From: Microbacterium oleivorans
Lineage (GTDB): Bacteria > Actinomycetota > Actinomycetes > Actinomycetales > Microbacteriaceae
NCBI RefSeq assembly: GCF_013389665.1
Contig: NZ_CP058316.1
Coordinates: 1,550,001-1,614,000 of the forward strand
Direction of reading: 5' to 3'
DNA length: 64,000 bases
A program made the translations under genes and the position numbers. The notes beneath the pieces were generated by a model, which had not been told where the DNA came from, did not search any database, and was given only the letters and a program-made list of their open reading frames with translations. This document shows positions 52,227 through 64,000 of the stretch, one piece after another. How positions within the stretch are numbered: the stretch's first letter is position 1; each line of letters opens with the position of its first letter.

Positions 52227-53684
52227 TCAGATCGAGATGCCGCGGTTGCGCAGGAACGGCGCAGGGTCGATGCGCACGCCGTTCTGGTAGATCTCGAAGT
52301 GCAGGTGGCAGCCCTGCGAGACGCCGGTGTTGCCCGCGTACGCGATGACCTGTCCGGCCGACACGCGCTGGCCGTAGCGGACGTTGTAGCCGCCGTTCTG
52401 GATGTGCGCGTAGCCCGAGATGATGCCACCGCCGTGGTCGACCTTGACGTAGTTGCCCCAGTCGGCGGTGTACGCCGCGTGCACGACGGTGCCGCTGGCG
52501 GCCGCGTAGATGGGGGCGCTGCATCCGCCGGCGAAGTCGATGCCGCGGTGACCCGACGTGCAGTATCCGTTCGAGCAGATCGTGCCGCGGTTGCCGAACC
52601 ACGAGCTGATGTAGCCGGGGCCGGGGCGCACCCAGCCCGACGGCTGCACCTGTCCGGCACCGCCGCCGCTGCTGCCGGCCGGAGTACCGCCGCCGCCACC
52701 GCCACCGCCACCACCGCCGCCGTTGTTGTTGTTGTTGGCGGCTGCAGCTGCAGCCGCTGCGGCGGCCGCTTCCTGTCGGCGGCGCTCTTCTTCGGCGGCG
52801 CGTCGGGCGGCCTCCTCGCGCTCGCGGCGCTTGCGCTCCTCCTCGCGACGGCGCTCTTCCTCGACACCGGCCTGGTAGCCGGCGACCGTCGTCGCGGTCT
52901 GGTCCTTGAGCGCGGCCAGCTGTGCCTGCAGCGTCGCCATGTTCGCGGTCTGCTCCTCGAGGGCCGCTTGCGCGACGACGGCGGCCTCCTGGGCTGCGAT
53001 GAGCGTCTGCTCGGCTTCTTTCTGCAGGCGGTCGCGCTCGTCGCGGGCGACGCCGGCCTGGTCGCTGAGGCTCTGCGCGGTCTCGCGGGCGGTCACGGCA
53101 TCCGTGTACACGCCGCGGTTCGCCTGCAGCAGCTTGTCCATCGTGCCGAGGCGGGCGAGCAGGTCGTCGGCGCTGGCAGCGGAGTCCGAGAAGAACAGCT
53201 TCAGGCTCGTGTCGTCGCCGCCGTTGCGGTACAGCTGCGCGGCGAGCTTGCCGGCCCGGCGCGCGGATTCGAGCGCAACGGCCGACTGCGCATCGGCCTC
53301 GGCCTGCAGGGCGTCGGCGCGGTAGGCGGCATCCTCGAAGTCGGCCTGCGCCTTGGCGTAGACGGCGGCCAGGCGTTCGGCCTCGGCCTGCTTGTACGCG
53401 ACATCGGCCGTCAGATCGGCGATGAGCTTCTCGATGCGCGAGATCTCGCCGGCCTTGGCCGACTCGTTGGCCAAGGCGCGCTGCACGTCGTCCCACGACG
53501 GGTAGCCCTCGATACCGAAGGCCGACGGGATGCCGGGGGCCAGGAACGCCGTCGCAGCGACGAAGCCGACGGCGCCGAGTCCGAGCGCACCTCGGCGCGA
53601 GATCAACTGTGAGAGCTTCCGGCTCTCTGCGGGCGTCGGGGCGCAACCGCAGTCTTCGGGAGATTCGAGGCTCTCGTATCGCAC
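52227..53684 (-). CDS. Tat-exported M23 peptidoglycan endopeptidase with coiled-coil region
   Basis: 485 residues from GTG 53684, with GGAGG 9 nt upstream. Residues 28-57 form a signal with twin arginine (ISRRGALGLG, Arg30-Arg31), pointing to Tat export. About 60-310 is heptad-rich coiled coil like the PcsB/EnvC group. Then comes a charged Arg/Glu stretch and a low-complexity run of alanines, asparagines and glycines (about 310-355). The C-terminal LytM/M23 domain has zinc ligands His379 and Asp383 (GHRGIDF) and HLH (His460, His462). All catalytic residues are present, so cleavage of cross-links during division or growth is likely. Confidence 0.9.
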   Translation of the reverse strand: MRYESLESPEDCGCAPTPAESRKLSQLISRRGALGLGAVGFVAATAFLAPGIPSAFGIEGYPSWDDVQRALANESAKAGEISRIEKLIADLTADVAYKQAEAERLAAVYAKAQADFEDAAYRADALQAEADAQSAVALESARRAGKLAAQLYRNGGDDTSLKLFFSDSAASADDLLARLGTMDKLLQANRGVYTDAVTARETAQSLSDQAGVARDERDRLQKEAEQTLIAAQEAAVVAQAALEEQTANMATLQAQLAALKDQTATTVAGYQAGVEEERRREEERKRREREEAARRAAEEERRRQEAAAAAAAAAAANNNNNGGGGGGGGGGGGTPAGSSGGGAGQVQPSGWVRPGPGYISSWFGNRGTICSNGYCTSGHRGIDFAGGCSAPIYAAASGTVVHAAYTADWGNYVKVDHGGGIISGYAHIQNGGYNVRYGQRVSAGQVIAYAGNTGVSQGCHLHFEIYQNGVRIDPAPFLRNRGISI

Positions 53685-53835
53685 GCGGGTGATCCTCCAT
53701 ATCGCGTGGGCAACTTCGTTCACAGTAGCAACACACGTCACAACACCGGTAGCGCCGTCATCGGCACTCCGGAGCGAGCGAACCCGGCCATTGTGACCCC
53801 GAGACACGCCCGGCCGGCGGACGCCACGCGCTCGA

Positions 53836-53865
53836 TTCGCACATCCGCGGCGGATCGCATATGCT
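53836..53865 (+). promoter_or_regulatory. Candidate promoter of the tRNA cluster
   Basis: TTCGCA (-35-like, 53836-53841) and TATGCT (-10-like, 53860-53865) with 18 nt between them, 47 nt before tRNA-Glu. Only a moderate consensus match. The rest of 53685-53912 shows no gene; the M23 peptidase promoter must also lie here on the other strand. Confidence 0.35.
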
Positions 53866-53912
53866 TGACCCTCGGTAAGCGTGAACGGAGACTCCCGGGT
53901 CTGGGTTCGCTC

Positions 53913-53985
53913 GGCCCCATCGTTTAGCGGCCTAGGACGCCGCCCTTTCACGGCGGTAGCACGGGTTCGAATCCCGTTGGGGTCA
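53913..53985 (+). tRNA. tRNA-Glu (TTC anticodon)
   Basis: 73 nt. Cloverleaf readable by eye: acceptor GGCCCCA with TGGGGTC, anticodon stem CCGCC/GGCGG around loop CTTTCAC (anticodon 53947-53949), T-loop GGTTCGAATCC, discriminator A. No CCA is encoded. Confidence 0.95.
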
Positions 53986-54006
53986 CTCCCACAATTTAAT
54001 AAGCAT

Positions 54007-54080
54007 GGCCCTGTAGCGCAGTTGGTTAGCGTGCCGCCCTGTCACGGCGGAGGTCGCGGGTTCAAGTCCCGTCAGGGTCG
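54007..54080 (+). tRNA. tRNA-Asp (GTC anticodon)
   Basis: 74 nt. Acceptor GGCCCTG pairs with CAGGGTC, anticodon loop CTGTCAC, T-arm GGGTTCAAGTCCC, discriminator G. Starts 21 nt after tRNA-Glu, so the two are probably transcribed together. Confidence 0.95.
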
Positions 54081-54093
54081 CTCTCAAGCGACG

Positions 54094-54116
54094 GGCCCTT
54101 TGGTTTCCAGAGGGCC
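54094..54116 (+). terminator. Hairpin after tRNA-Asp
   Basis: GGCCCTTTGG-TTT-CCAGAGGGCC, a 10-bp stem with one G-U pair, then TTTCGTTT. It ends the Glu-Asp transcript, so tRNA-Phe downstream may have its own promoter or rely on read-through. Confidence 0.65.
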
Positions 54117-54150
54117 TTTCGTTTAGGACGTGGCATCTTTGACGCCATGC

Positions 54151-54223
54151 GGCTCTGTAGCTCAGTTGGTAGAGCGCACGACTGAAAATCGTGAGGTCAC
54201 GGGATCGACGCCCGTCGGAGCCA
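54151..54223 (+). tRNA. tRNA-Phe (GAA anticodon), target of island insertion
   Basis: 73 nt. Acceptor GGCTCTG/CGGAGCC, D-arm AGCTCAGTTGGTAGAGC, anticodon loop CTGAAAA, discriminator A. The T-loop GGGATCGACGCCC carries ATCGA in place of the usual TTCGA/TTCAA. Its 3' part from the anticodon loop onward recurs at 60748-60791, so an element entered here while keeping the gene intact. Confidence 0.93.
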
Positions 54224-54224
54224 C
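54181..54224 (+). repeat. Left attachment-site repeat (3' part of tRNA-Phe)
   Basis: 44 nt, from the anticodon loop to one base past the acceptor. Matches 60748-60791 at 40 of 44 positions, in the same orientation. Integrases commonly use the 3' half of tRNA genes as attachment sites. Confidence 0.75.
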
Positions 54225-54249
54225 ACGGATGATCATTACGTCATCCCAG

Positions 54250-54290
54250 AAACCCTCGCCTAGCTTCTACATGGCGGGGGTTTTGCTTTT
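54250..54290 (+). terminator. Rho-independent terminator after tRNA-Phe
   Basis: AAACCCTCGCC pairs with GGCGGGGGTTT (11 bp, one G-U) around a 12-nt loop, followed by TTTTGCTTTT. It is just inside the island's left end; 54291-54506 after it shows no gene. Confidence 0.85.
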
Positions 54291-54506
54291 CCCTGATGTG
54301 GCGGGGTTTCGGCCCCACCGATCGCGCCCGCAGAGAGGTCGGAAACCCGCGTCCCGGAGCCGGTCGACGTACAGCCAAAGCAGGACAACCCCGGGCTCAT
54401 CAGAGGCGTTCGGGCCGGCCTGGGGCCGGTCAAGGCTCGAAGCAGAGGGCGCTAGGCCGCTTCTGCCCATCGTTCGAACGGTGCGCCCGGCCGATAACGT
54501 ACGTGC

Positions 54507-55628
54507 ATGCCTTCGCTGACGCCGGCCCAGCTGTCGCTCGAACTGCGGGTGCCCCAGAAGCGAATACGTGACGTCCTCCGGCAGCTATACGGCACCTTGC
54601 CGGACGATCAGCCACGGTGGCAGCTTGATGAGAACCAGGCCGAGCGCGTGCGCACCCACTTCGACAAGACCGCCGCGGATCCCCTGGAGGCATGGCTGCT
54701 TGAGCCTGGGGACGTTGTCCGTCGACGCTCCATCCATGAGACCTACGGCGGTCAGCAGCAGGGCGGAATCTCGACACCAAGGAGTATCCCGGAGATCCTG
54801 ATCTTCACGGACCCGGATGCCGGCGCCAAGTTCGGCTATAACCAGTTCGAGGGGCTCCGGGAGGACGGTTCATACTCCTACACCGGGGAAGGGCAGTACG
54901 GACCTCAGGTCTTCGTCCGCGGAAACAAGGCAGTCCGCGACGCCGCGAAGGATGGCAAGATCATCCGGCTTCTTCGCACAAAGGGTATCCTCGCGACTTA
55001 CGTCGGCGCTTTCACGACCGGCGATCCGGCCTTCACGATCGAGACGATTCCTGACGCGGATGGAGATCCGCGCGACGGCATCATCTTCAACCTGCTCCCG
55101 CTCGATGCATTGATTGAGCTCCTGCCCGCATATGGCGGACAGCTCGGGCCCACGGGCGATCTGACAAACTATGCCGCTACCCCGCGGATCTGGACGCCTC
55201 CCGAATTTAGCGATGTCGTCGTGCCTGAGACTAAGCACGTGCAGGATGAGCGAACCGTTTCACGGGTCGAGTTCGAACTCCAAGCTGACTTCGGCGTATG
55301 GCTCGGCTCGCAGGGTGCAACCCCCAAGCGCTTACCGCTACGGGCGGGAAGTACACTGATCGAGCCGGATATGTTCGTGCCCGAGCGAAACTGGATCGTC
55401 GAGGCCAAACGCTCAACAGCCCGCGGACACGTGAGGACTGCCATCGGTCAGGTACTCGACTATGTACACATCGCGGCGAAGGCGGGCTTGCTGGCGGCTC
55501 CGGTCATCTTGCTTCCGGGCACTCCCGAGCTAGACCTGCAAGAACTCATGCACGAGCTCGGCATAACGCTGGCCACGCGAACGAGCGATGGGTTTCGGAT
55601 CCTGGACCCTAAGCCCTCTCAGACATGA
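54507..55628 (+). CDS. Putative modification-dependent (type IV) restriction endonuclease: SRA-like plus PD-(D/E)XK
   Basis: 373 residues. N-terminal 55 residues are helix-turn-helix-like (LSLELRVPQKRIRDVLRQL). About 70-160 resembles the SRA/YDG base-flipping fold: IHETYGGQQQGGIS, then IFTDPDAGAKFGY and GSYSYTGEGQYG, where SRA proteins show a similar SGGY...YTG pattern. The C-terminal part is a PD-(D/E)XK nuclease: Glu255/Glu257 on the leading helix, Asp288 in IEPDMF, Glu299 and Lys301 in VEAK, and Gln315 in IGQVLDY. All catalytic residues are present. By analogy with PvuRts1I/MspJI-type enzymes it may cut DNA with modified cytosine; specificity is inferred. It ends 20 nt inside the convergent NUDIX gene. 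Confidence 0.7.
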   Translation: MPSLTPAQLSLELRVPQKRIRDVLRQLYGTLPDDQPRWQLDENQAERVRTHFDKTAADPLEAWLLEPGDVVRRRSIHETYGGQQQGGISTPRSIPEILIFTDPDAGAKFGYNQFEGLREDGSYSYTGEGQYGPQVFVRGNKAVRDAAKDGKIIRLLRTKGILATYVGAFTTGDPAFTIETIPDADGDPRDGIIFNLLPLDALIELLPAYGGQLGPTGDLTNYAATPRIWTPPEFSDVVVPETKHVQDERTVSRVEFELQADFGVWLGSQGATPKRLPLRAGSTLIEPDMFVPERNWIVEAKRSTARGHVRTAIGQVLDYVHIAAKAGLLAAPVILLPGTPELDLQELMHELGITLATRTSDGFRILDPKPSQT

Positions 55629-56007
55629 GCATCTCGACTGCAGGCAGGTCAGGCATCGCCCAGTCGAGGCTCCCGAGTTCCTCGACTGGAATCCACACCA
55701 TACGGTCATGATCTGTGCTGGATAGCGGCGGGTCACTCATAAGCTGAGCACGGAGACAGATCAGTCGAATCGTGACCTCACCGACCTCTGTGTCAGCTGT
55801 CGTCAACTCGCCGACGACCCGAATATCGGTCGCGAGCTCCTCACAGATCTCACGGCGCACCGCTTCCTCGGGAACCTCACCAGCCTCAACCTTCCCGCCA
55901 GGAAACTCCCACTGCCCTCCTGCAGCCTTATCGGGGCTACGCCGGCACGCCAGCACGCGATCACCGTCGAAAATGACCGCCGCCGCGACGAGGAGAACCT
56001 TGCGCAT
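55609..56007 (-). CDS. NUDIX hydrolase (NudG/MutT-type nucleoside triphosphate pyrophosphatase)
   Basis: 132 residues. The Nudix box is complete: GGKVEAGEVPEEAVRREICEEL (given in two parts: GGKVEAGEVPEE then AVRREICEEL), residues about 37-58. The opening VAAAVIFDGDRVLACRR and WEFPGGK match the MutT/NudG group that removes oxidised or 5-modified pyrimidine nucleotides. The C-terminus STDHDRMVWIPVEEL is nearly the same as in the NUDIX gene at 60207, so the two are paralogues at opposite ends of the island. Convergent with the endonuclease gene. Confidence 0.88.
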   Translation of the reverse strand: MRKVLLVAAAVIFDGDRVLACRRSPDKAAGGQWEFPGGKVEAGEVPEEAVRREICEELATDIRVVGELTTADTEVGEVTIRLICLRAQLMSDPPLSSTDHDRMVWIPVEELGSLDWAMPDLPAVEMLMSERA

Positions 56008-56237
56008 GCATCGACGTTAGACCAGCGTGCGCTGGGGCATCTCCGGCTTGCCCGCCGAGCGCTCGGATGCACGCCCGGTGGGTCAGCCCAGCGGCATCCT
56101 CCGACCGTTCTTCCGCCACAAGGTCGACACCGAGCTTGCCCGCCGGCTCGTCACAGGGATTGCGATGCCTCGCCGCGATCCTTCAATGATTTCGATGCAA
56201 GCTGACCGCTACCGTCGACCACACGACGTCTCCTCGT

Positions 56238-56417
56238 GTGACAACGGATCCGTCCGAGATCGACTTCGGCGTTGTGCACCGTTGGCTATCCGAGGACGCG
56301 TTCTGGGCGATCGGACGCAGCCGAGAGACCGTCGATCGAGCTGCTCGCGGATCCTTGAACTTCGGGGTGCGCGATACCGACGAAGACCTGAGGCAGCTTC
56401 ATGGAGCGAACACCTAA
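56238..56417 (+). pseudogene. GNAT acetyltransferase fragment (N-terminal 59 residues)
   Basis: Reading from a GTG, the peptide contains VVHRWLSEDAFWAIGRSRE and RAARGSLNFGVRD, the typical first helix and strands of GNAT acetyltransferases. It stops before the acetyl-CoA-binding motif, so the protein is too short to work. The following sequence does not restore the frame. It appears to be a decayed gene in the island. An inverted repeat (ACACGA-7 nt-TCGTGT) directly precedes it. Confidence 0.6.
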
Positions 56418-56795
56418 GCAACGAGACCCCTCGCTACTCAGCGTGTTTCAGGACTGACGCAGTCGGTTCGACGCACGCGAGATCAAGGGCAACGAAGATG
56501 CCAAGGCAACCCGCGTCCGCCGACCGCCAGGCGCCCGTTGACTCCGCAACCCAGAGCTGTGAGAACTTTCTTTACTCGTTCAAGGCCGGCCTGACGGCCG
56601 GCCCCGCCACCTGCGGTGCGTCCGGTCCTCGCTCCGCTGCGGTCCGGGCGCTCCTCGGCGGCTACCGCAGCCGACACGGCGCGGGCAGCGTAGCCAATCC
56701 CCCAGGATGGGTTTGAGGCCCCACTAGGCTGCAGCACGTGGTCAATCTGTTCCTGCCCCGAGGCCCCCAATGACCCAGCGATTGCAGAGCGCGTT
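56418..56795. other. Gene-free stretch of the island
   Basis: No convincing gene on either strand. It contains a GC hairpin, GGCCGGCC-TGAC-GGCCGGCC (56584-56603), without a T-run. The short section 56008-56237 on the other side of the GNAT remnant also shows nothing beyond possible promoter space for the divergent NUDIX gene. Confidence 0.6.
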
Positions 56796-57116
56796 ATGCA
56801 GCTGAGTTTTGGGGGAATCGCGATACGAACAATCTGTCTCCGCGGTCAGGTTGACTCGTTCGGAAGTGCAACAGGCGAGTCACTTCGAGCGACGATTGCG
56901 GAGTTGCAGGCCGCGCCCACGTTCGCCGATCTTCCGTTCGGCGCGGATGTCCTGGACGTTGGTCACGGATCAGTTACGGTTGCACTAGACCAAAAGGCGG
57001 AGCTCTTAGGCGCGCTCCTTCTCCGACCTGGTCGGTCCGCACCCACGACTCCCGCGGAGTGGGGCGTCGCTCGAAGGATACGAATCGACGAGATCCGGGC
57101 AAAGGAGGATCGGTAG
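56796..57116 (+). CDS. HigB-like (RelE/ParE fold) putative toxin
   Basis: 106 residues. The order IRTICLRGQ, ATGESLRATIAELQAAPTFADLP, then WGVARRIRIDEI follows small killer proteins that sit before HTH/ImmA-IrrE partners, where relatives show LRxxCE, a helix with LRxRLADL.AA and a closing W..V.RI.I..I. The usual Arg/His residues of ribosome-dependent RelE enzymes are poorly kept, so activity is uncertain. It ends one nucleotide before the next ATG, the classic toxin-first HigBA arrangement. Start chosen as the first ATG; no strong ribosome site. Confidence 0.6.
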   Translation: MQLSFGGIAIRTICLRGQVDSFGSATGESLRATIAELQAAPTFADLPFGADVLDVGHGSVTVALDQKAELLGALLLRPGRSAPTTPAEWGVARRIRIDEIRAKEDR

Positions 57117-58214
57117 ATGTCCACAACCACCTTCGAACCGCGTTGGGCTTCGGCCCCCGCCGTCAGCATCCATCGTGCACTGCGCCGCCACAACTGGACT
57201 GTCGACGACTTGTCGGATCGTCTTGGCGTGGGGGACCCGGAGACTCGGCGAATCCTCAACGGGGACCGCCCAATCGACGCCCACCTTGCCGAGCTTTTGG
57301 CACGCACTCTCGGAGGGTCATCCGACTTCTGGCTGCAGCGAGAGAGCCAGTTCGCGGCAAGCGTCCGCGCGCTGTCGGATGAGGAATTCGCCCAGCGCCT
57401 CCCGCTGAAGCAGATGGTTCGACTTGGATGGATCGAATCCTCCACCAGTTGGAGATCGCAAGCACGTAGCGCGCTCGATTTCTTTGACGCAAAGACCCCA
57501 GCCGAGGGGACGTCCCGCATTGAGAGCACTCTCCAAGAAGCGAGGTACCGCGCGTCCGCGTCCTTCGACTCCGATGCCATCGCACTAGCCACGTGGATGC
57601 GGCAGGTAGACCGAATCGCGGACGCTCAGACTCTCAGTTCGTGGGATCCTGCCGCGTTGTCCGATCAGCTGCGCAACCTCCGGGATCTGACGAGACTTGC
57701 CGATCCGCGCGACTTCCTCCCGAAAACTCAAGCGCACCTCGCCGCTGCCGGGGTAGGTTTCGTGGTTTTGAGGCCGCTCGAGGGTATGCGGATCAGTGGC
57801 GTGTCATTCTGGAGCGCCAGTAGAGCCCCACGCATAGCACTCACCGCAAGACACATGACCGATGACCACCTGTGGTTCACGCTTTTCCACGAGATCGGGC
57901 ATTTGCTAATTCACCCCGAGGGTGATGTCTTCGTGGATGAGTTCGTCGCGGGGCAAGATGTCTCCCATATGGAGCAGGAGGCAAACACCTTTGCGGCAGA
58001 CAATCTCTTGCCCTTCGGGACCGCGGATCTGAATTCCAGAAGGACGAACGGGCCGACTATGCGCGAAGTGACGAAATTCGCCTCGAGGAATGAGGTCGCT
58101 CCTGGCATTGTTGTTGGTCAGCTACAGCATTCTGGCGCGCTACGCCCAAATCAGCTCAATGGCCTTAAACGTCGATACCGCTGGGACGGTACAGATCTGT
58201 CACGCCGCCCTTAG
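57117..58214 (+). CDS. HigA-like HTH protein fused to ImmA/IrrE metallopeptidase
   Basis: 365 residues. Residues about 15-75 are an XRE/HigA helix-turn-helix (LSDRLGVGDPETRRILNGDRPID). Residues about 200-300 form an ImmA/IrrE peptidase with HEIGH (His258, Glu259, His262) and the downstream MEQEANTFAADNLLP that supplies the third zinc ligand. Such proteins act as antitoxins or cleave repressors during stress. AAAGGAGGA (overlapping the previous gene's end) precedes the ATG by 5-6 nt, so it is coupled to the toxin-like gene. Its stop overlaps the convergent gene by 4 bp. Confidence 0.85.
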   Translation: MSTTTFEPRWASAPAVSIHRALRRHNWTVDDLSDRLGVGDPETRRILNGDRPIDAHLAELLARTLGGSSDFWLQRESQFAASVRALSDEEFAQRLPLKQMVRLGWIESSTSWRSQARSALDFFDAKTPAEGTSRIESTLQEARYRASASFDSDAIALATWMRQVDRIADAQTLSSWDPAALSDQLRNLRDLTRLADPRDFLPKTQAHLAAAGVGFVVLRPLEGMRISGVSFWSASRAPRIALTARHMTDDHLWFTLFHEIGHLLIHPEGDVFVDEFVAGQDVSHMEQEANTFAADNLLPFGTADLNSRRTNGPTMREVTKFASRNEVAPGIVVGQLQHSGALRPNQLNGLKRRYRWDGTDLSRRP

Positions 58215-59146
58215 CCGGAGAACCGCTGATAAGCATCGGGAGACTTCTGCCAGTTACAAACTGCGTCTTCCATCACGTCACCACGAATCCCAATCGACTG
58301 CGACAGCACTTGCAACTCCCGCTGCAAATCGCGCGCGAGCCCTTCGCCAACCTTGCCTCTGAGCAAAAGTTGCGCGCCGCGGAGCGGGCCCGTTGCACCG
58401 ACAAGGTAGGAGTGCGGCACGTCTAGCTGCACTAGCTCAAGCTTTAGCAAGGTGGTCAGGTAGTCGAAGCGCGCGATACGCCCGAATCGCGCGACAGCGG
58501 ACATCGATCGATATAGCGCATCAAATCTGTCGGCAGGATCCAGGACGTCGAATTGAGCGAAGAAGGCAGCATGGTCGCCGCCGCCAGACAAGATCCAACG
58601 CACATAGCTCTCGAATGCTTCGCCGGTTCCCGTCTTCTCCCAAGCGTTGAGACTCTCGTACTTTCGATGGTTGCTAAATCCCCGCGGTCCCGGGGCGGCC
58701 AATAGTTCCTGCTGATGATCGTCGAGCCAGTACCGGAACCCGATCGGGTCCGCGGACACCGACGGCCAATCCCAAAGCCGTCCGTCGCCTAACCTTCCAT
58801 AAACGTCGCGCACATATCGCCAACCAGCAAGGCGATGACGACCGAAGTGAACGAAAAGGAAGACGAGCCAAACAGCTTCGTCATAGTTCCCCCGCTCCGC
58901 GTGAATTATGGACGCACGCAACGGGTCGAAAGACGTGCTCCCCGGATCTGCACTGTTGGCGTCGAGAGTGCGGCCACGCAGCCGCGCGAAGTAGGCAACT
59001 CTCTGTTCGGAGTCGATAATTTGATCGATTAACCCCTCACGGAAGCTCGGATCGAGGATTCCCGGCAACGCTCCGTATTCGGCCTCGAATGCGTCCAAAG
59101 CCGCGCCGATGCGCTCCGCATCTCGGCGATAATTATTCCTGATCAT
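58211..59146 (-). CDS. Helical protein possibly related to aGPT-PPlase/ADDT DNA base-modification families
   Basis: 311 residues, almost entirely alpha-helical by composition. Distinctive segments are LWDWPSVSADPIGF (about 124-137), GFSNHRKYESL (156-166), FGRIARFDYLTTL (221-233), VGATGPLRGAQLLL (249-262) and VMEDAVCNW (291-299). From memory these resemble helical families predicted by comparative genomics to act in hypermodified thymine/cytosine synthesis of phages (alpha-glutamyl/putrescinyl thymine pyrophosphorylase and amino acid:DNA transferase groups). I cannot verify that match. Its ATG overlaps the hydroxymethylase-like gene's stop, so the two surely act together. Confidence 0.5.
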   Translation of the reverse strand: MIRNNYRRDAERIGAALDAFEAEYGALPGILDPSFREGLIDQIIDSEQRVAYFARLRGRTLDANSADPGSTSFDPLRASIIHAERGNYDEAVWLVFLFVHFGRHRLAGWRYVRDVYGRLGDGRLWDWPSVSADPIGFRYWLDDHQQELLAAPGPRGFSNHRKYESLNAWEKTGTGEAFESYVRWILSGGGDHAAFFAQFDVLDPADRFDALYRSMSAVARFGRIARFDYLTTLLKLELVQLDVPHSYLVGATGPLRGAQLLLRGKVGEGLARDLQRELQVLSQSIGIRGDVMEDAVCNWQKSPDAYQRFSG

Positions 59147-60093
59147 CGGGATTCCTCCAGCTGCTGCCGTCGGTCGCGCAAGTACGGTGAGTAGAAGGAA
59201 TTTGTCAGCTGACCCTCGATCGCCTCGATTTCCTCCGCTCTTTTAGCCGCGACAGCCCGCAGCAACAAGACGACGTCGCCCCAGTAGCTGTCGGAGGCTA
59301 GTTCCGGATCCACAGCCGCCTGAGACCCTGACGTGCGTATCGCGACCTCAGCAGATAAGAGCTTCGACAAGAAATCATCCACTCGGTCTGGCGGCATTAT
59401 CGGCATTGCGCCCGGGTACTGCCAACCTTCGACGTCCAGATAACGATCAATCTGGGCCATATTCTCTTCGTAAATGTGCATACTTCCCACGAAGTGAACA
59501 TAACGTCCGAGCGAGAGACCAAGCTGGCACGCAACGATCTCTTGAAGCATGGTGAACGCAAATACGTCATGTGGGAAGCCAAGGTAAGCATCGTTCGAGC
59601 GCATACTCACAACGAGGTTAAGTTCGCCACCCCGAGATAGGAACTGCATTGAGGTGGTGCACGGAACGTCGGCAACATTCACCAGGTCAGCATGATCAAA
59701 GATCTGGACTACAGCGCGACGCGAGTCACGGTTGTCTCTGAGTATTTGAACGACATCCGCAAGTCTCGCCCCGACGCCAAAAAGCCTTGGACCATAGCCC
59801 CCCTCGACCCGACCTTCATGGGCCGAATGGACATACGCGGGGATGTAGTAGCTGATCATTTCGACGTCGTCAGTGCCGCCGAGATACCACAGCAGCTCGC
59901 CGAGGGCGCTGAATATTCGGCCACGTGTCTGGCTGCGGCTGACTCGAGATCGTGGATCCGAGATCTCTATGCTCGCCCCAATGATTTCGCGCGCGGGTCC
60001 CTTTCTAGGATGGATCGGCTCGCCGCCCGTTCGCAGCCCGGCGAACACATCGTTCAAGGCGTCGTCCAGAGACTCCTGCCGCACTATGAGCAT
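59143..60093 (-). CDS. Thymidylate-synthase-fold protein, predicted (d)CMP hydroxymethylase
   Basis: 316 residues from ATG 60093 (a GTG at 60120 would add 9). The fold is unmistakable: GELLWYLGGTDD (catalytic Glu66), ADVPCTTSMQFLSRGG (nucleophile Cys145), VSMRSNDAYLGFPHDVFAFTML, and VGSMHIYEEN (His206, Tyr208, sugar contacts). Thymidylate synthases have Asn in the LPFN position that reads the uracil ring; here it is Asp176 (GFPHD), as in dCMP/CMP hydroxymethylases such as T4 gp42 and MilA. A cytosine substrate and hydroxymethylation are therefore predicted. The host presumably has a separate thymidylate synthase. A consensus -10 box lies just upstream. Confidence 0.75.
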   Translation of the reverse strand: MLIVRQESLDDALNDVFAGLRTGGEPIHPRKGPAREIIGASIEISDPRSRVSRSQTRGRIFSALGELLWYLGGTDDVEMISYYIPAYVHSAHEGRVEGGYGPRLFGVGARLADVVQILRDNRDSRRAVVQIFDHADLVNVADVPCTTSMQFLSRGGELNLVVSMRSNDAYLGFPHDVFAFTMLQEIVACQLGLSLGRYVHFVGSMHIYEENMAQIDRYLDVEGWQYPGAMPIMPPDRVDDFLSKLLSAEVAIRTSGSQAAVDPELASDSYWGDVVLLLRAVAAKRAEEIEAIEGQLTNSFYSPYLRDRRQQLEESR

Positions 60094-60131
60094 CTCCGCG
60101 CCTCGCCTTCGTATGTGCACGCCTCGGGCCG

Positions 60132-60139
60132 ATTATACT
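60132..60139. promoter_or_regulatory. Overlapping divergent -10 boxes between hydroxymethylase-like and NUDIX genes
   Basis: On the minus strand TATAAT (60132-60137), a perfect -10, with TCCACA 18 nt upstream as a 4/6 -35 match; it drives the hydroxymethylase/helical-protein pair. On the plus strand TATACT (60134-60139) could serve the NUDIX gene, with no clear -35. Such a strong -10 is unusual in this genome. Confidence 0.55.
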
Positions 60140-60206
60140 GAGCGCCTTTGACTCGTGTGGAGCCGACGTGCTGGGTCTCGACGGACGGATGGGCGACAAT
60201 GAAGCC

Positions 60207-60620
60207 ATGAGTACCCCTATGCGAGTTGCTGCGGCGATCGTCGTGAATGATGCAGGCCGCGTGCTCATCGGGCGACGCCGGCCGGGGCTACGGAGCGCGG
60301 GTTGCTGGGAGTTCCCGGGAGGGAAGCTGGAGGCAGGAGAGGCGCCCCCCGACGCGATCGTGAGGGAGCTTCGGGAGGAACTGTCAATAGAGGTCAAGCC
60401 GGGCGAAGAGCTGTGTCGGTCAATTGCCGTAGACGAGAACATCGAACTGATCTGTGTGTGGGCGACACTCGTCTCCGCTGCGCCACTTAGGAGCACTGAC
60501 CACGACATTTTCCTGTGGGAGTCCCCGGAATCACTTCCTCTCTCCGGTTGGTGCGCCCCTGACCTCGAGGCGGTAGCGCTCCTTCGGCGTGGTGCGACAT
60601 CCCCCACCACTTACACGTGA
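60207..60620 (+). CDS. NUDIX hydrolase (NudG/MutT-type), divergent from the hydroxymethylase-like gene
   Basis: 137 residues from ATG 60207, where the conserved sequence MRVAAAIVVNDAGRVLIGRRR follows in a few codons (quoted as MRVAAAIVV then GRVLIGRRR). Nudix box GGKLEAGEAPPDAIVREL then REELSIEV is intact. STDHDIFLWESPESLPL mirrors the left-end NUDIX. NudG-like enzymes prefer 5-modified cytosine nucleotides such as 5-methyl- and 5-hydroxy-dCTP, which fits a neighbour that may make 5-hydroxymethyl-dCMP (inference). The gene ends 127 nt before the right attachment repeat. Confidence 0.85.
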   Translation: MSTPMRVAAAIVVNDAGRVLIGRRRPGLRSAGCWEFPGGKLEAGEAPPDAIVRELREELSIEVKPGEELCRSIAVDENIELICVWATLVSAAPLRSTDHDIFLWESPESLPLSGWCAPDLEAVALLRRGATSPTTYT

Positions 60621-60747
60621 CCGGGCCGGTCCAGGGCCGGAAGCTCGGCTGAGACTGTCGAGAACCAGCCATCACCAACGAACACGACTTCCGCGGAATC
60701 ACGCGGCAAACGAGCACTCGTGAGCACCCGTAAACCCGCCGCATACA

Positions 60748-60791
60748 ACTGAAAATCGAGAGGTCACGGGGTCGACGCCGGCCGGAGCCAC
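60748..60791 (+). repeat. Right attachment-site repeat (degenerate copy of tRNA-Phe 3' part)
   Basis: Starts with the anticodon-loop sequence ACTGAAAATCG and ends GGAGCCAC, 40/44 identical to 54181-54224. The 5' half of a tRNA is absent, so it is not a functional tRNA. One change alters the T-arm stem. The surrounding 60621-61094 stretch has no other recognisable feature. Confidence 0.78.
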
Positions 60792-61094
60792 TGGTCCTTC
60801 TTCAGGCTTCCACCGGAGGAGGGTCTTTTCTCTTGCTCGGCCAACGGCGTGTCTCGACTTGATCATCGAACGAGCGATTCGAGACGAACCGCCTGCATCG
60901 GATGCCATCTGGTCGCCAGACGAGACGAGTTGCGCGTTCGCATGTAGGCCGAGCAGGTGCCCATTGCAACCGGCTTCGGTGGCCGCCCCCCGCAGCGATC
61001 CTGGCGGTCTTCACCCTCGAGACCCCTGCACTGGCGACAGCAACGTTTCGGTCTCAGTTCCGCCGTTCGCCATCCTGCGTGAAAACGTCGTCGT

Positions 61095-61508
61095 GTGAGA
61101 CAGCCCCCCGTTGTGCCGTCAGTCATTGCGGCGCTCGCGATGAGCTTCATGCTGACCAGTTGCGGGGGAGCCTTCGCCTGCCCGGCCATCGGGTGGTCGA
61201 ACACGCTCATCGTCGAGGTCCACGAAGAAGATGTCGCCGCCACGATGGTGGAAGTGTGCGACGAGCGCGGCTGCTCCAGTGAGCCTTCGCCCGACGGTCT
61301 GACCGGCTTCTCTTCACCGCAAAGGACCGGCGAGGGATGGGTCCTACACCTGCCGGACATGTCAACCCCGGACAACTTCATCGTGCGGGCTCTTGATGCG
61401 GAGGGCAACGTCATACGTGAGATGACAGTCGCGGCCGAGTGGAAGCGCTCCGGCGGGAGTGAACAGTGCGGCGGGCCGGGTGAGGCACGAGTCAGGCTCG
61501 TGCTCTGA
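61095..61508 (+). CDS. Small lipoprotein of unknown function
   Basis: 137 residues from a GTG at 61095. Hydrophobic N-terminus ending in the lipobox MLTSC (Cys23), so it is exported and lipidated. The mature part has paired Cys (CDERGCSS) and one near the end (EQCGG), and looks beta-rich with alternating charged residues. No strong ribosome site is seen. No family recognised. First gene outside the island on the right. Confidence 0.65.
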   Translation: MRQPPVVPSVIAALAMSFMLTSCGGAFACPAIGWSNTLIVEVHEEDVAATMVEVCDERGCSSEPSPDGLTGFSSPQRTGEGWVLHLPDMSTPDNFIVRALDAEGNVIREMTVAAEWKRSGGSEQCGGPGEARVRLVL

Positions 61509-61614
61509 GCGTCCATCAGAACGCGGATGCGGGTGCGGATGACCATCGGTTCGTGACGAAACGAGAAGCCGCAAGACCGTGGGGGTACCGCGCCGCCGCG
61601 GATCCTCGTCCCCG

Positions 61615-61752
61615 TCAGCTGGGAGCGGTGACGCGCACGAGACCGCAGTTCAGGCACGACCACGCGACCGTGAACGACTCGTCGTCGAGGATCTCGAACC
61701 GCAGGGGATCGCCGCAGGTCGGGCAGGTCCACCCCGCGGCGGAGCGGCTCAT
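61615..61752 (-). CDS. Zinc-ribbon microprotein, 45 aa
   Basis: Starts MSRSAAGWTCPTCGDPLRF; a second CLNCG near residue 34 completes a CPxCG...CLxCG zinc ribbon. The ATG overlaps the stop of the TetR gene (ATGA), which supports its reality despite the small size. Such ribbons can bind nucleic acid or a protein partner; here it may assist the regulator. Function unknown. Confidence 0.68.
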   Translation of the reverse strand: MSRSAAGWTCPTCGDPLRFEILDDESFTVAWSCLNCGLVRVTAPS

Positions 61753-62339
61753 CGGACCAGGTCTCTGAAGGTGACCAGGAGCAGATTTTGAACGGACCGG
61801 TCCTCTCCCGCGTCGCCCCAGGTCGTCAACGCCAGGGTGAAGGCACCGAGGCTGGCCTGCACCAACGCGCGTGCGCGCAGATCGACGTCATCCCCCGACA
61901 GGCGCTGCGCCACGATCGGCGCCAACATCTCCGACCAGAGCGAGTGCTTCTCCATGTTGCGAGCGCGCAATGCGGGAGTCGCGGACATGAGGCGCATCGC
62001 GACTCTGTCTCGCTCGGTCTGCGCCCGACTTCCCATCATCGCCGTATAGGCGGCCAGCAGGGAGCGCATGACGGGCTCGTCGGCGGGACGATCCTCCAGC
62101 GCGACGCGCACCAGGTCGCCGTAGCTCTCGGGCACCCCGATGACCATGTCCTCCTTCGAACGGAAATAGCGGTGCAGGCTGCGCGCCGAGATGCCGGCCG
62201 CATCCGCGACCTGCTCCACGGTCACCGCGTCGAAGCCGTGCTCGGCGAAGAGGTCGAGCGCGATATCCGCCAGCCGTTGACGGACTGCTTCGCGGGTGAA
62301 TCCGCGAAGCCCATCGCGCGACGGCTCAGTGGCGGGCAT
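61749..62339 (-). CDS. TetR-family regulator
   Basis: 196 residues. Classic N-terminal helix-turn-helix: HGFDAVTVEQVADAAGISARS followed by LHRYFRSKEDMV (quoted in parts; about residues 34-66). The C-terminal ligand domain is not of a recognised subfamily. Divergent from the aldo/keto reductase remnant, with an inverted repeat in the 83-nt gap, which suggests it once controlled that enzyme. The downstream zinc-ribbon gene is translationally coupled. Confidence 0.9.
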   Translation of the reverse strand: MPATEPSRDGLRGFTREAVRQRLADIALDLFAEHGFDAVTVEQVADAAGISARSLHRYFRSKEDMVIGVPESYGDLVRVALEDRPADEPVMRSLLAAYTAMMGSRAQTERDRVAMRLMSATPALRARNMEKHSLWSEMLAPIVAQRLSGDDVDLRARALVQASLGAFTLALTTWGDAGEDRSVQNLLLVTFRDLVR

Positions 62340-62363
62340 TCGATCATCTTACGCTGTCACGGG

Positions 62364-62378
62364 TGTCAGACACTGACA
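62364..62378. promoter_or_regulatory. Inverted repeat, probable TetR operator
   Basis: TGTCAG-ACA-CTGACA, perfect 6-bp arms with a 3-nt spacer, between divergent TetR (ATG 62339) and the aldo/keto reductase remnant (ATG 62423). Further TGTCA-type half-sites lie nearby on both sides (GCTGTCAC and GCTGTCATT). Confidence 0.7.
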
Positions 62379-62422
62379 TGACAGGCGCACGCTGTCATTC
62401 ACACTCCTGGAAGGACGACAGC

Positions 62423-62873
62423 ATGCAGCAGCGCGCCATCGGCAACCTCGGTCTCACCTCGTCGGCGATCGGATACGGCGCCATGGGCACCGTGTTCGGA
62501 TACGGCCCGAGCGATGACACCGAATTGATCGCGGCGATCCGCCGCGCCCACGACGACGGCGTCACGCACTTCGACACCGCCGAGCTGTACGGCTGGGGCA
62601 CCGGCGAGGAGCTGCTCGGTGCCGCCTTGGCGCCGATTCGACGCGAACCTGACGACCGCCCAGCAGCTCTCCGCACTGGCCGAGAGCAAGGGCGTGTCGC
62701 TCGCGCAGCTCTCGCTGGCCTGGCTGCTGGCTCAGCGGCCCGACATCGTGCCGATCCCGGGGTCTCGCAACCCCGACCGTGTCAGTGACAACAACGCCGC
62801 CGCGGGTGTCGAGCTGTCCGCCGACGACCTGACGCGCATCGACGCGATCATCGCCGCCGGCCCCGCCCAGTAA
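62423..62873 (+). pseudogene. Aldo/keto reductase with large internal deletion and frameshift
   Basis: Begins normally after GGAAGGA: MQQRAIGNLGLTSSAIGYG, then HFDTAELYGWGTGEELLGAALAP with the catalytic Asp/Tyr region. At about 62640 the sequence jumps, in another frame, to the family's C-terminal part: RFDANLTTAQQLSALAESKG, LAWLLAQRPDIVPIPGSRNPD and the closing ELSADDLTRID. Only about 150 codons remain of some 325, so roughly 170-180 codons are missing. The two parts meet at a short CGATTCGAC, compatible with a deletion between repeats. No functional enzyme is expected. Confidence 0.85.
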
Positions 62874-63068
62874 GTCCCGTCCGACGCGGGCGAACCCGCC
62901 CGACTCGGACGGGCGGGACGGTATCCGCCGAGACGGGATTCCGCAATCTCATTCCGGTGAATGGAAACGGGCGTAGCGTTGACCATGGTCGACCCACAAC
63001 GGCCGACCCGACCGGCGCTCCACGCGGACGGGGCGCTGATCGTCACATCTCGAGCCCAGGAGGCAGAT

Positions 63069-63857
63069 ATGACGGACGCCCGTTTCACCGACAAGACCAT
63101 CCTCATCACCGGAGGCGGTTCCGGATTGGGTCGGGCCACCGCGGTCCGACTGGCGACCGAGGGCGCGAACCTCGCGCTCGTCGATGTGTCCGAACCGGGC
63201 CTCGCCGCCACGGTCGACGCCATCCGCGAGGTCGCACCGAACGCCCGCGTCATCACGACGACCGCCGACGTCTCGGACGAGGCGCAGGTGAAGAACTACG
63301 TCGACGCGGCGAAGAACGAGTTCGGCCGCATCGACGGCTTCTTCAACAACGCCGGCATCGAGGGCAAGCAGAATCTCACCGAGGACTTCACCGCCGACGA
63401 GTTCGACAAGGTCGTGGCGATCAACCTCCGTGGCGTCTTCCTCGGGCTCGAGAAGGTGCTCCCGATCATGCGCGAGCAGGGCTCGGGCGCCGTCGTGAAC
63501 ACGGCGAGCGTCGGCGGCATCCGCGGCGTCGGCAACCAGTCCGGCTACGCGGCCGCGAAGCACGGAGTCGTCGGCCTCACGCGCAACTCCGCCGTCGAGT
63601 ACGGCCGGTACGGCGTTCGGCTGAACGCGATCGCTCCCGGAGCCATCTGGACCCCGATGGTCGAGAACTCGATGAAGCAGATCGACGCCGAGAACCCACG
63701 CAGGGCCGCCGAGGAGTTCATCCAGGCGAACCCGACCAAGCGCTACGGCGAGGCGCCCGAGATCGCGGCGGTGGTCGCGTTCCTGCTCTCGGATGACGCG
63801 TCGTACGTCAACGCGACGGTGCTGCCGATCGACGGCGGGCAGTCCGCCGCGTACTGA
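63069..63857 (+). CDS. Short-chain dehydrogenase/reductase (SDR)
   Basis: 262 residues from ATG 63069, with AGGAGG 6 nt before. Cofactor motif TGGGSGLGRATA, then NNAGIEG, the Ser of NTASVGGIRG, and the catalytic YAAAK (Tyr and Lys). The C-terminal IDGGQSAAY is usual for classical SDRs. An NAD(H)-type enzyme is suggested by an acidic residue in ALVDVSE. The substrate is unknown. The 195-nt region before it holds no gene. Confidence 0.9.
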   Translation: MTDARFTDKTILITGGGSGLGRATAVRLATEGANLALVDVSEPGLAATVDAIREVAPNARVITTTADVSDEAQVKNYVDAAKNEFGRIDGFFNNAGIEGKQNLTEDFTADEFDKVVAINLRGVFLGLEKVLPIMREQGSGAVVNTASVGGIRGVGNQSGYAAAKHGVVGLTRNSAVEYGRYGVRLNAIAPGAIWTPMVENSMKQIDAENPRRAAEEFIQANPTKRYGEAPEIAAVVAFLLSDDASYVNATVLPIDGGQSAAY

Positions 63858-63878
63858 CGTAACGCTCGCAGCTGAAGG

Positions 63879-63903
63879 AGGCCGGCCCGATCGGGCCGGC
63901 CTT
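63879..63903 (+). terminator. Rho-independent terminator after the SDR gene
   Basis: AGGCCGGCCC-GATC-GGGCCGGCCT, a perfect 10-bp stem with 4-nt loop, starting 21 nt after the stop codon and followed by TCG with only a weak T-run. 63904-64000 shows no further feature. Confidence 0.75.
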
Positions 63904-64000
63904 CGTCGTGGCCGGACTCCCCCGGCCACGACCGACGTGTCCGGCCCGCGGCGCCCCATAGGATCCGAAGGACGGACGACCACGCCGCACAGGGGAGAGA

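Follow-up and report, generated by a model that had tools for sequence, protein, structure and literature searches.

Organization of the tRNA-Phe island and its four-gene module

A four-gene module was identified at positions 56796-60120 of a 64,000-nucleotide stretch of Microbacterium oleivorans DNA (the window; NCBI RefSeq assembly GCF_013389665.1, contig NZ_CP058316.1, positions 1,550,001 to 1,614,000 of the forward strand), taken from a genome of 3.35 Mb in one contig. The module lies in an island that contains seven convincing genes between tRNA-Phe and a distal partial copy of it. From left to right, these genes encode an SRA-type nuclease, a NUDIX protein (NUDIX A), a HigB-like protein, a helix-turn-helix (HTH)-ImmA protease, aGPT-Pplase3 (PF18746), an enzyme with the thymidylate synthase (TS) fold and a second NUDIX protein (NUDIX B). 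The unit is not the whole island but the module, composed of the genes for the HigB-like protein (56796-57116, plus strand), the HTH-ImmA protease (57117-58214, plus strand), aGPT-Pplase3 (58211-59146, minus strand) and the TS-fold enzyme (59143-60120, minus strand). The two minus-strand genes lie tail to tail with the HTH-ImmA gene. The TS stop codon overlaps the start of the aGPT-Pplase3 gene as ATGA, the coupling described in an earlier note on this DNA.

Loci were collected with an aGPT-Pplase3 alignment (A1), one genome per species; 80 of the 127 places confirmed in this way were kept. With one viral contig (L003), the locus of genome G148 (L096) and the window, the set comprises 83 loci; L001, L002, L084 (the own genome again), L086 (a weak match) and L087-L091 were left out. 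Profiles made for the partners detected the TS gene in 81 of the 83 loci, the HTH-ImmA gene in 80 and the small (HigB-like) gene in 79. Since the four genes recur together across this set, their grouping is not due to chance. Five loci are incomplete: L018, L028, L065 and L082 are cut by contig ends, and L064, which is not truncated, has the aGPT gene only.

The most frequent gene orders are TS-aGPT facing ImmA-small gene (42 loci) and TS-UDG-aGPT facing ImmA-small gene (31 loci), where UDG denotes a gene of the uracil-DNA glycosylase superfamily. The ends of the aGPT and ImmA genes overlap or are at most 30 bp apart, tail to tail, in 73 of the 78 convergent loci; the two genes are not convergent in two further loci. 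TS and aGPT are fused in one reading frame in L004. A common operator upstream of the TS and HigB-like genes was considered and rejected: the signal was hardly above that of mismatched loci, and the sole exact match (L036) was artefactual, its slice lying at a contig end.

The TS genes of L013 and L075 and the HTH-ImmA gene of L032 lie in two pieces in different frames and are perhaps broken copies. An extra gene of one family is found beside the small gene in nine loci (L003, L053, L056, L059, L066, L071, L073, L080 and L081), the hosts of which are alphaproteobacteria where named. No convincing Pfam family was found for it in the eight of the nine that were scanned.

Predicted dCMP hydroxymethylase

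The TS-fold enzyme matches PF00303 (E 1.4e-25). Its closest solved relative is MilA, a cytidine monophosphate (CMP) 5-hydroxymethylase (5.8e-44), with thymidylate synthases far behind (1.2e-20). In an alignment of 78 of 80 module TS proteins (at least 250 amino acids), Asp185, Ser175 and Cys154 are invariant (78/78). At the position of MilA Lys133, the window enzyme has Arg134; 67 of the 78 proteins have Arg there and the other 11 have Lys. Passages of PMC5175136 attribute cytosine specificity to Asp in place of the TS Asn (Asp179 in T4, Asp186 in MilA), and passages of PMC5175136 and PMC6400193 attribute deoxyribose specificity to Ser instead of Ala together with Arg instead of Lys at MilA Lys133. 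The module enzymes share the active-site Cys and the cytosine Asp with MilA and the T4 deoxycytidine monophosphate (dCMP) hydroxymethylase, and the Ser with the T4 enzyme, but are bacterial and set with ImmA and aGPT-Pplase3. At the place of Asp185, a T4-like dCMP hydroxymethylase also has Asp, whereas Asn is found in two canonical thymidylate synthases and in a ViI-like and an M6-like phage enzyme, of two phage groups that use deoxyuridine monophosphate. The module enzyme is therefore well supported as a predicted cytosine-type deoxynucleotide (dCMP) hydroxymethylase, and the cytosine hydroxymethylase of the earlier note holds as a prediction, with Asp185 and Ser175 in all 78 proteins. The host genome contains ThyX and no other ThyA, so the module enzyme is not needed as the cellular thymidylate synthase.

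aGPT-Pplase3 and the UDG-like partner

aGPT-Pplase3, a member of aGPT-Pplase clade 3 with an HhH-glycosylase/PUGT-like fold, matches PF18746 over its full length (E 3.9e-84; 282.8 bits against a curated cut-off of 25; profile positions 3-279 of 279). It also matches PF18724 (ADDT, amino acid:DNA transferase; 2.1e-56), and among viral models an amino acid:DNA transferase comes nearest (6.3e-5). The two Pfam matches agree with its earlier description as a hypermodification-like helical protein. Foldseek alone gave no PDB match under 0.001; in a second structural comparison the closest solved structure was PUGT (8z2n), at a Z value that helical models can reach by common arrangement. Sequence searches against PDB sequences with aGPT-Pplase3, the SRA-type nuclease and the profile of the mid gene described below yielded nothing useful. 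The net charge of aGPT-Pplase3, tried as a hint of DNA binding, was uninformative (-5 in the window; mean -1.2 in A1 and +5.4 in the 83 longest frames).

A mid gene encoding an enzyme with the UDG-superfamily fold, of the thymine-DNA glycosylase (TDG)/family-4 kind, is present in 37 of the 83 loci (model built from 23 of the 37). The earlier note missed this partner because it is absent from the window and found in other loci. It changes 12 times on the aGPT tree, which indicates repeated loss or gain.

Thymidine hypermodification in phages of the ViI, M6 and PaMx11 types proceeds by pathways of a TS-superfamily hydroxymethylase and an ADDT/PUGT-fold enzyme. The module contains the same combination, but the two phage hypermodification TS enzymes compared have the uracil-type Asn and the module enzymes the cytosine-type Asp, and no kinase was noticed among the neighbour matches listed. 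The aGPT-Pplase3 family is named for the phage thymine reaction; as its constant partner here is a predicted dCMP hydroxymethylase, the word "thymine" in its Pfam name is probably a misnomer where this module is concerned.

In passages of PMC13092281 on the DefensePredictor candidates, aGPT-Pplase is named as a predicted, unvalidated defence domain and a TS domain is among the validated ones, so the idea of defence is itself not new; those passages give no mechanism. In the literature searched, neither this gene set nor a cytosine substrate was found described; Iyer et al. 2013 and Burroughs et al. 2015 may treat it.

HTH-ImmA protease and HigB-like protein

The HTH-ImmA/IrrE protease is of the HigA-ImmA type and matches PF06114 (7e-12) and HTH_3. 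The HExxH motif is present in all 79 aligned proteins (79 of 80 came within the length limits). Its partner, a 106-amino-acid protein of family A3, could not be placed convincingly in any Pfam or PADLOC family. The profile of this family (33 of 79 small genes aligned) matches HigB with an hhalign probability of 87.7%, against less than 1% for three unrelated controls. The HigB/HigA-ImmA pair listed last in the earlier note is thus retained, the HigB-like member by profile alignment alone.

The HTH-ImmA protein of the window matches the PADLOC model PD-Lambda-2_B (4.6e-34). According to Vassallo et al. 2022 (PMC9519451), the anti-phage system PD-lambda-2 contains a HigB-like protein, an HTH-peptidase (HigA-like plus peptidase) and a relative of the P4 antitoxin; the B protein alone is toxic and is rescued by A, and the third gene is required for defence. 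The module has the dCMP-hydroxymethylase-like enzyme and aGPT-Pplase3 instead of this third component. The C component gave no PADLOC match among the seven island proteins, the small protein of the window had no PADLOC match to the A component, and no PD-Lambda-2 model was among the matches of the 33 small proteins at E 1. From the B match and a small protein aligned to HigB by profile only, the pair is judged on its sequence to resemble PD-lambda-2 without being a member.

Distribution and mobility of the module

The module is patchy and rare. Its loci form 77 clusters at 90% aGPT identity and occur in nine phyla (Actinomycetota, Acidobacteriota, Chloroflexota, Pseudomonadota, Gemmatimonadota, Planctomycetota, Myxococcota, Bacteroidota and Verrucomicrobiota). 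Matches above the cut-off were found in 2 of 394 genomes of the class sample, the own genome included (a third, weak match fell below). Matches also occur in 1 of 58 relatives, which is the window's own, and in 8 of 72,556 plasmids; a large database contained 2158 related proteins. One plasmid copy sits amid phage structural genes.

Of 5426 complete Escherichia coli genomes, 226 match the module query over 80% of it or more; among the 231 matching records, 226 are at least 99% identical to a single variant. A version of the module is therefore directly testable in laboratory E. coli. The three E. coli sites inspected all have type I restriction genes nearby: one, at tRNA-Leu, together with an integrase gene, and the other two together with dGTPase-like genes and, in one case, SIR2. 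A MazG-like gene lies at the small-gene end in the enterobacterial versions L087, L088, L089 and L077, including all three E. coli sites. The 181 neighbour proteins show no dominant family; integrase (4/117), ResIII (3/117), Shedu (2/117) and others were among the matches listed. A search for aGPT-Pplase3 among 50,697 records from phages gave no match at E 0.01. One IMG/VR viral contig (L003) encodes it, and as this protein is identical to that of a Rhizobium locus (L073), the contig is weak evidence of phage carriage.

The tRNA-Phe gene (54151-54224, plus strand; ARAGORN and Rfam) is the likely integration site, and the right end of the island is an att-like repeat (60745-60791, plus strand), which repeats the final 47 bases of tRNA-Phe imperfectly, at 89% identity; the tRNA-Phe bounds proposed earlier are thereby confirmed. 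No integrase was recognised within the island, and an Rfam scan of 53500-64000 gave three tRNAs and nothing else. The tRNA cluster of the site is matched in part or in full by all 59 genus genomes sampled, and at least five of them (G453, G006, G011, G457 and G455) have the end of tRNA-Phe a second time, as a copy of 44-83 bases no more than 40 kb away. The tRNA-Phe island of G457 (L097) has 173 bases in common with the window (60621-60793) at 89%, with different remaining cargo. In G148, from another genus, this tRNA cluster is likewise present, along with the four-gene module, a NUDIX gene that diverges from the TS gene and, by eye in the list of open reading frames, a tyrosine-integrase-like gene. 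The second tRNA-Phe copies in the genus and the module at the same cluster in G148 identify the site as an island hot spot and show that the four-gene module travels with islands. The portable gene set comprises TS, an optional UDG-like enzyme, aGPT-Pplase3, HTH-ImmA and a HigB-like protein.

NUDIX genes and probable SRA-type nuclease

NUDIX A (55609-56007, minus strand; PF00293 7e-20; PADLOC PDC-S07 6.2e-40) is convergent with the SRA-type nuclease gene. NUDIX B (60168-60620, plus strand; PF00293 4.5e-15; PDC-S07 1.6e-30) is an accessory gene divergent from the TS gene. The two proteins are 47% identical, as expected from the paralogues that the earlier note had seen, but their scores for NudG (PRK10546; 68.6 and 67.1 bits) do not reach the NCBIfam cut-off of 156, so that they are NudG-like and not NudG members.

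A simple script called 303 neighbours in 1.14 Mb of sequence flanking loci L003-L083. The scan covered 174 of the 175 neighbours of 140-1500 amino acids and seven short ones chosen on purpose, by which the NUDIX counts are biased. Four NUDIX A relatives were found in these flanks, each at most 700 bp from the module, and another in L096; the other loci of the scan had no relative of NUDIX A or B at E 0.01. As all four lie in a zone that makes up 9.5% of the flank searched, NUDIX is a true, though uncommon, companion of the module. In L006, L010 and L096, a divergent NUDIX gene occupies the position of NUDIX B. The table of neighbours that the earlier note had called for hence places NUDIX genes beside the coupled TS/aGPT pair elsewhere, in a minority of loci, and the TS residues are of the cytosine type.

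The gene at 54507-55628 (plus strand) belongs to what looks like a separate unit and encodes a probable SRA-type modification-dependent nuclease, with relatives named ScoMcrA-like SRA or YDG-SRA. It has no direct match to PF02182 (SRA); the assignment comes from a precomputed PF26348 match, the names of its relatives and two relatives that match PF02182 below the cut-off. A PD-(D/E)XK-like motif was seen by eye at the C-terminus, with no profile or PDB match. The SRA half of the nuclease proposed earlier is thus a probable one, and the PD-(D/E)XK half stays a reading by eye. The probable SRA part would be common to the protein and the SRA-HNH type IV enzymes TagI and ScoMcrA (PMC6212794), from which the protein differs in its C-terminus and its convergent NUDIX partner.

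Within the 83 loci, an SRA-type nuclease is near the module in two, the window and L061 (SRA-HNH, 1.8 kb away). Relatives of the nuclease were detected in 14 of 199 genomes of the family sample, own included. A convergent NUDIX A relative accompanies the own copy and three of the 13 others, those with the best E-values (L114, L115 and L116; 49-59% identity), where the NUDIX gene is of the PDC-S07 type, and none was found in the stretch examined around the ten weaker ones. No module gene occurs in about 1.5 kb on each side of L114, L115 and L116. Because it recurs in these loci, the SRA-nuclease with convergent NUDIX A looks like a pair of its own, a second and probably independent restriction unit in the island. 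This two-gene unit may couple modification-dependent cutting with the clearing of modified deoxycytidine triphosphate (dCTP); a NUDIX enzyme that destroyed modified dCTP would guard host DNA against the host's own SRA-nuclease. The SRA-nuclease may act on the same base as the module.

Proposed function and alternative explanations

The conserved core, the mobility and the regulator of the module point to a conflict system, the published specificity residues to 5-hydroxymethyl-dCMP as the predicted product, and the folds of the partners to base-directed chemistry. The module is tentatively regarded, at slightly under even confidence, as a mobile toxin-antitoxin-gated conflict module, most likely anti-phage, that works via 5-hydroxymethyl-dCMP. 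From the computed gene set, residues, folds and mobility, we infer the activities and the anti-phage role as follows. The TS-fold enzyme would convert dCMP to 5-hydroxymethyl-dCMP. By family and fold, aGPT-Pplase3, which is related to phage enzymes attaching amino groups to a 5-substituted pyrimidine of DNA, would act on the hydroxymethyl-cytosine product, and the UDG-superfamily enzyme would take part in the 37 loci that have it. By analogy with PD-lambda-2, HTH-ImmA and the HigB-like protein would gate the pair, with the chemistry or toxicity freed on infection. The net outcome could be poisoning, draining or base-excision attack on the cytosine pool or new phage DNA. The NUDIX (window) or MazG (E. 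coli) neighbours would bar 5-hydroxymethyl-dCTP from host DNA or supply dCMP. Neither a nucleotide kinase nor a DNA 5-hydroxymethyl-pyrimidine kinase was noticed among the matches listed for neighbours, which favours the nucleotide as the target; aGPT-Pplase3 family membership favours DNA. The fuller picture, that a phage hydroxymethylcytosine trick is turned into a weapon, with ImmA-gated 5-hydroxymethyl-dCMP, an attack on the base or nucleotide by glycosylase-fold enzymes (aGPT-Pplase3, joined in many loci by the UDG-like enzyme) that ruins the cytosine pool or phage DNA, and NUDIX or MazG keeping host DNA clean, is possible but on the doubtful side. If true, base hydroxymethylation would be used by bacteria as a means of attack, beyond being a mere target of restriction.

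The aGPT-Pplase3 evidence can also be read as hypermodification of host DNA, in which 5-hydroxymethyl-dCMP would enter DNA and be processed by aGPT-Pplase3 into an epigenetic mark or restriction shield, in the manner of phages, with ImmA/HigB serving as addiction. The PF18724 match, the amino acid:DNA transferase as closest viral model and PUGT as closest structure all agree with such a pathway. Against it, no kinase was noticed among the matches listed, the SRA-type nuclease carried by the island would endanger such DNA, and the base-excision-fold enzyme in 37 of 83 loci is opposed to a stable mark; this explanation is considered rather unlikely. The earlier note had instead joined the entire 54.2-60.8 kb island into a single system that makes, clears and senses 5-hydroxymethylcytosine, an improbable reading now, although the NUDIX A relatives close to the module and the SRA-HNH gene of L061 speak for it. 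The lack of NUDIX relatives in the remaining scanned loci, the SRA-type nuclease in just two of 83, the SRA-NUDIX pairs apart from the module in L114-L116 and the G457 island with the same right end and other cargo are all contrary to it. Making stays a predicted activity and NUDIX genes recur beside the module in a minority of loci, but a single module spanning the island is not supported; the constant partners are HTH-ImmA (80/83) and the HigB-like protein (79/83), which the earlier note listed last.

Two further explanations concern the TS-fold enzyme. A remnant of a MilA/BcmA-type secondary-metabolite pathway yielding a nucleoside product would fit MilA as the closest solved relative; it is very improbable, given that the MilA-type ribose Ala is Ser in 78 of 78 proteins and the HTH-ImmA partner is constant. 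The fold would also suit a spare thymidylate synthase lying by chance beside a toxin-antitoxin pair, for which there is scarcely any likelihood in the face of Asp185 in 78 of 78 proteins, linkage over nine phyla and the TS-aGPT fusion of L004.

Other observations in the region

No convincing gene lies in the stretch of about 0.8 kb that separates NUDIX A from the HigB-like gene (56008-56795). The G457 island (L097:3384-7769) has, by eye, DUF262-like and cyclase-like cargo and no clear integrase. At 61615-61752 (minus strand) of the window, a 45-amino-acid frame has two CxxC pairs and is zinc-ribbon-like by eye. Its DNA is found in many genus genomes at about 75-94% among the matches listed, and in G459, G015 and G440 the matching DNA flanks the tRNA-Phe cluster on the side where it lies in the window.

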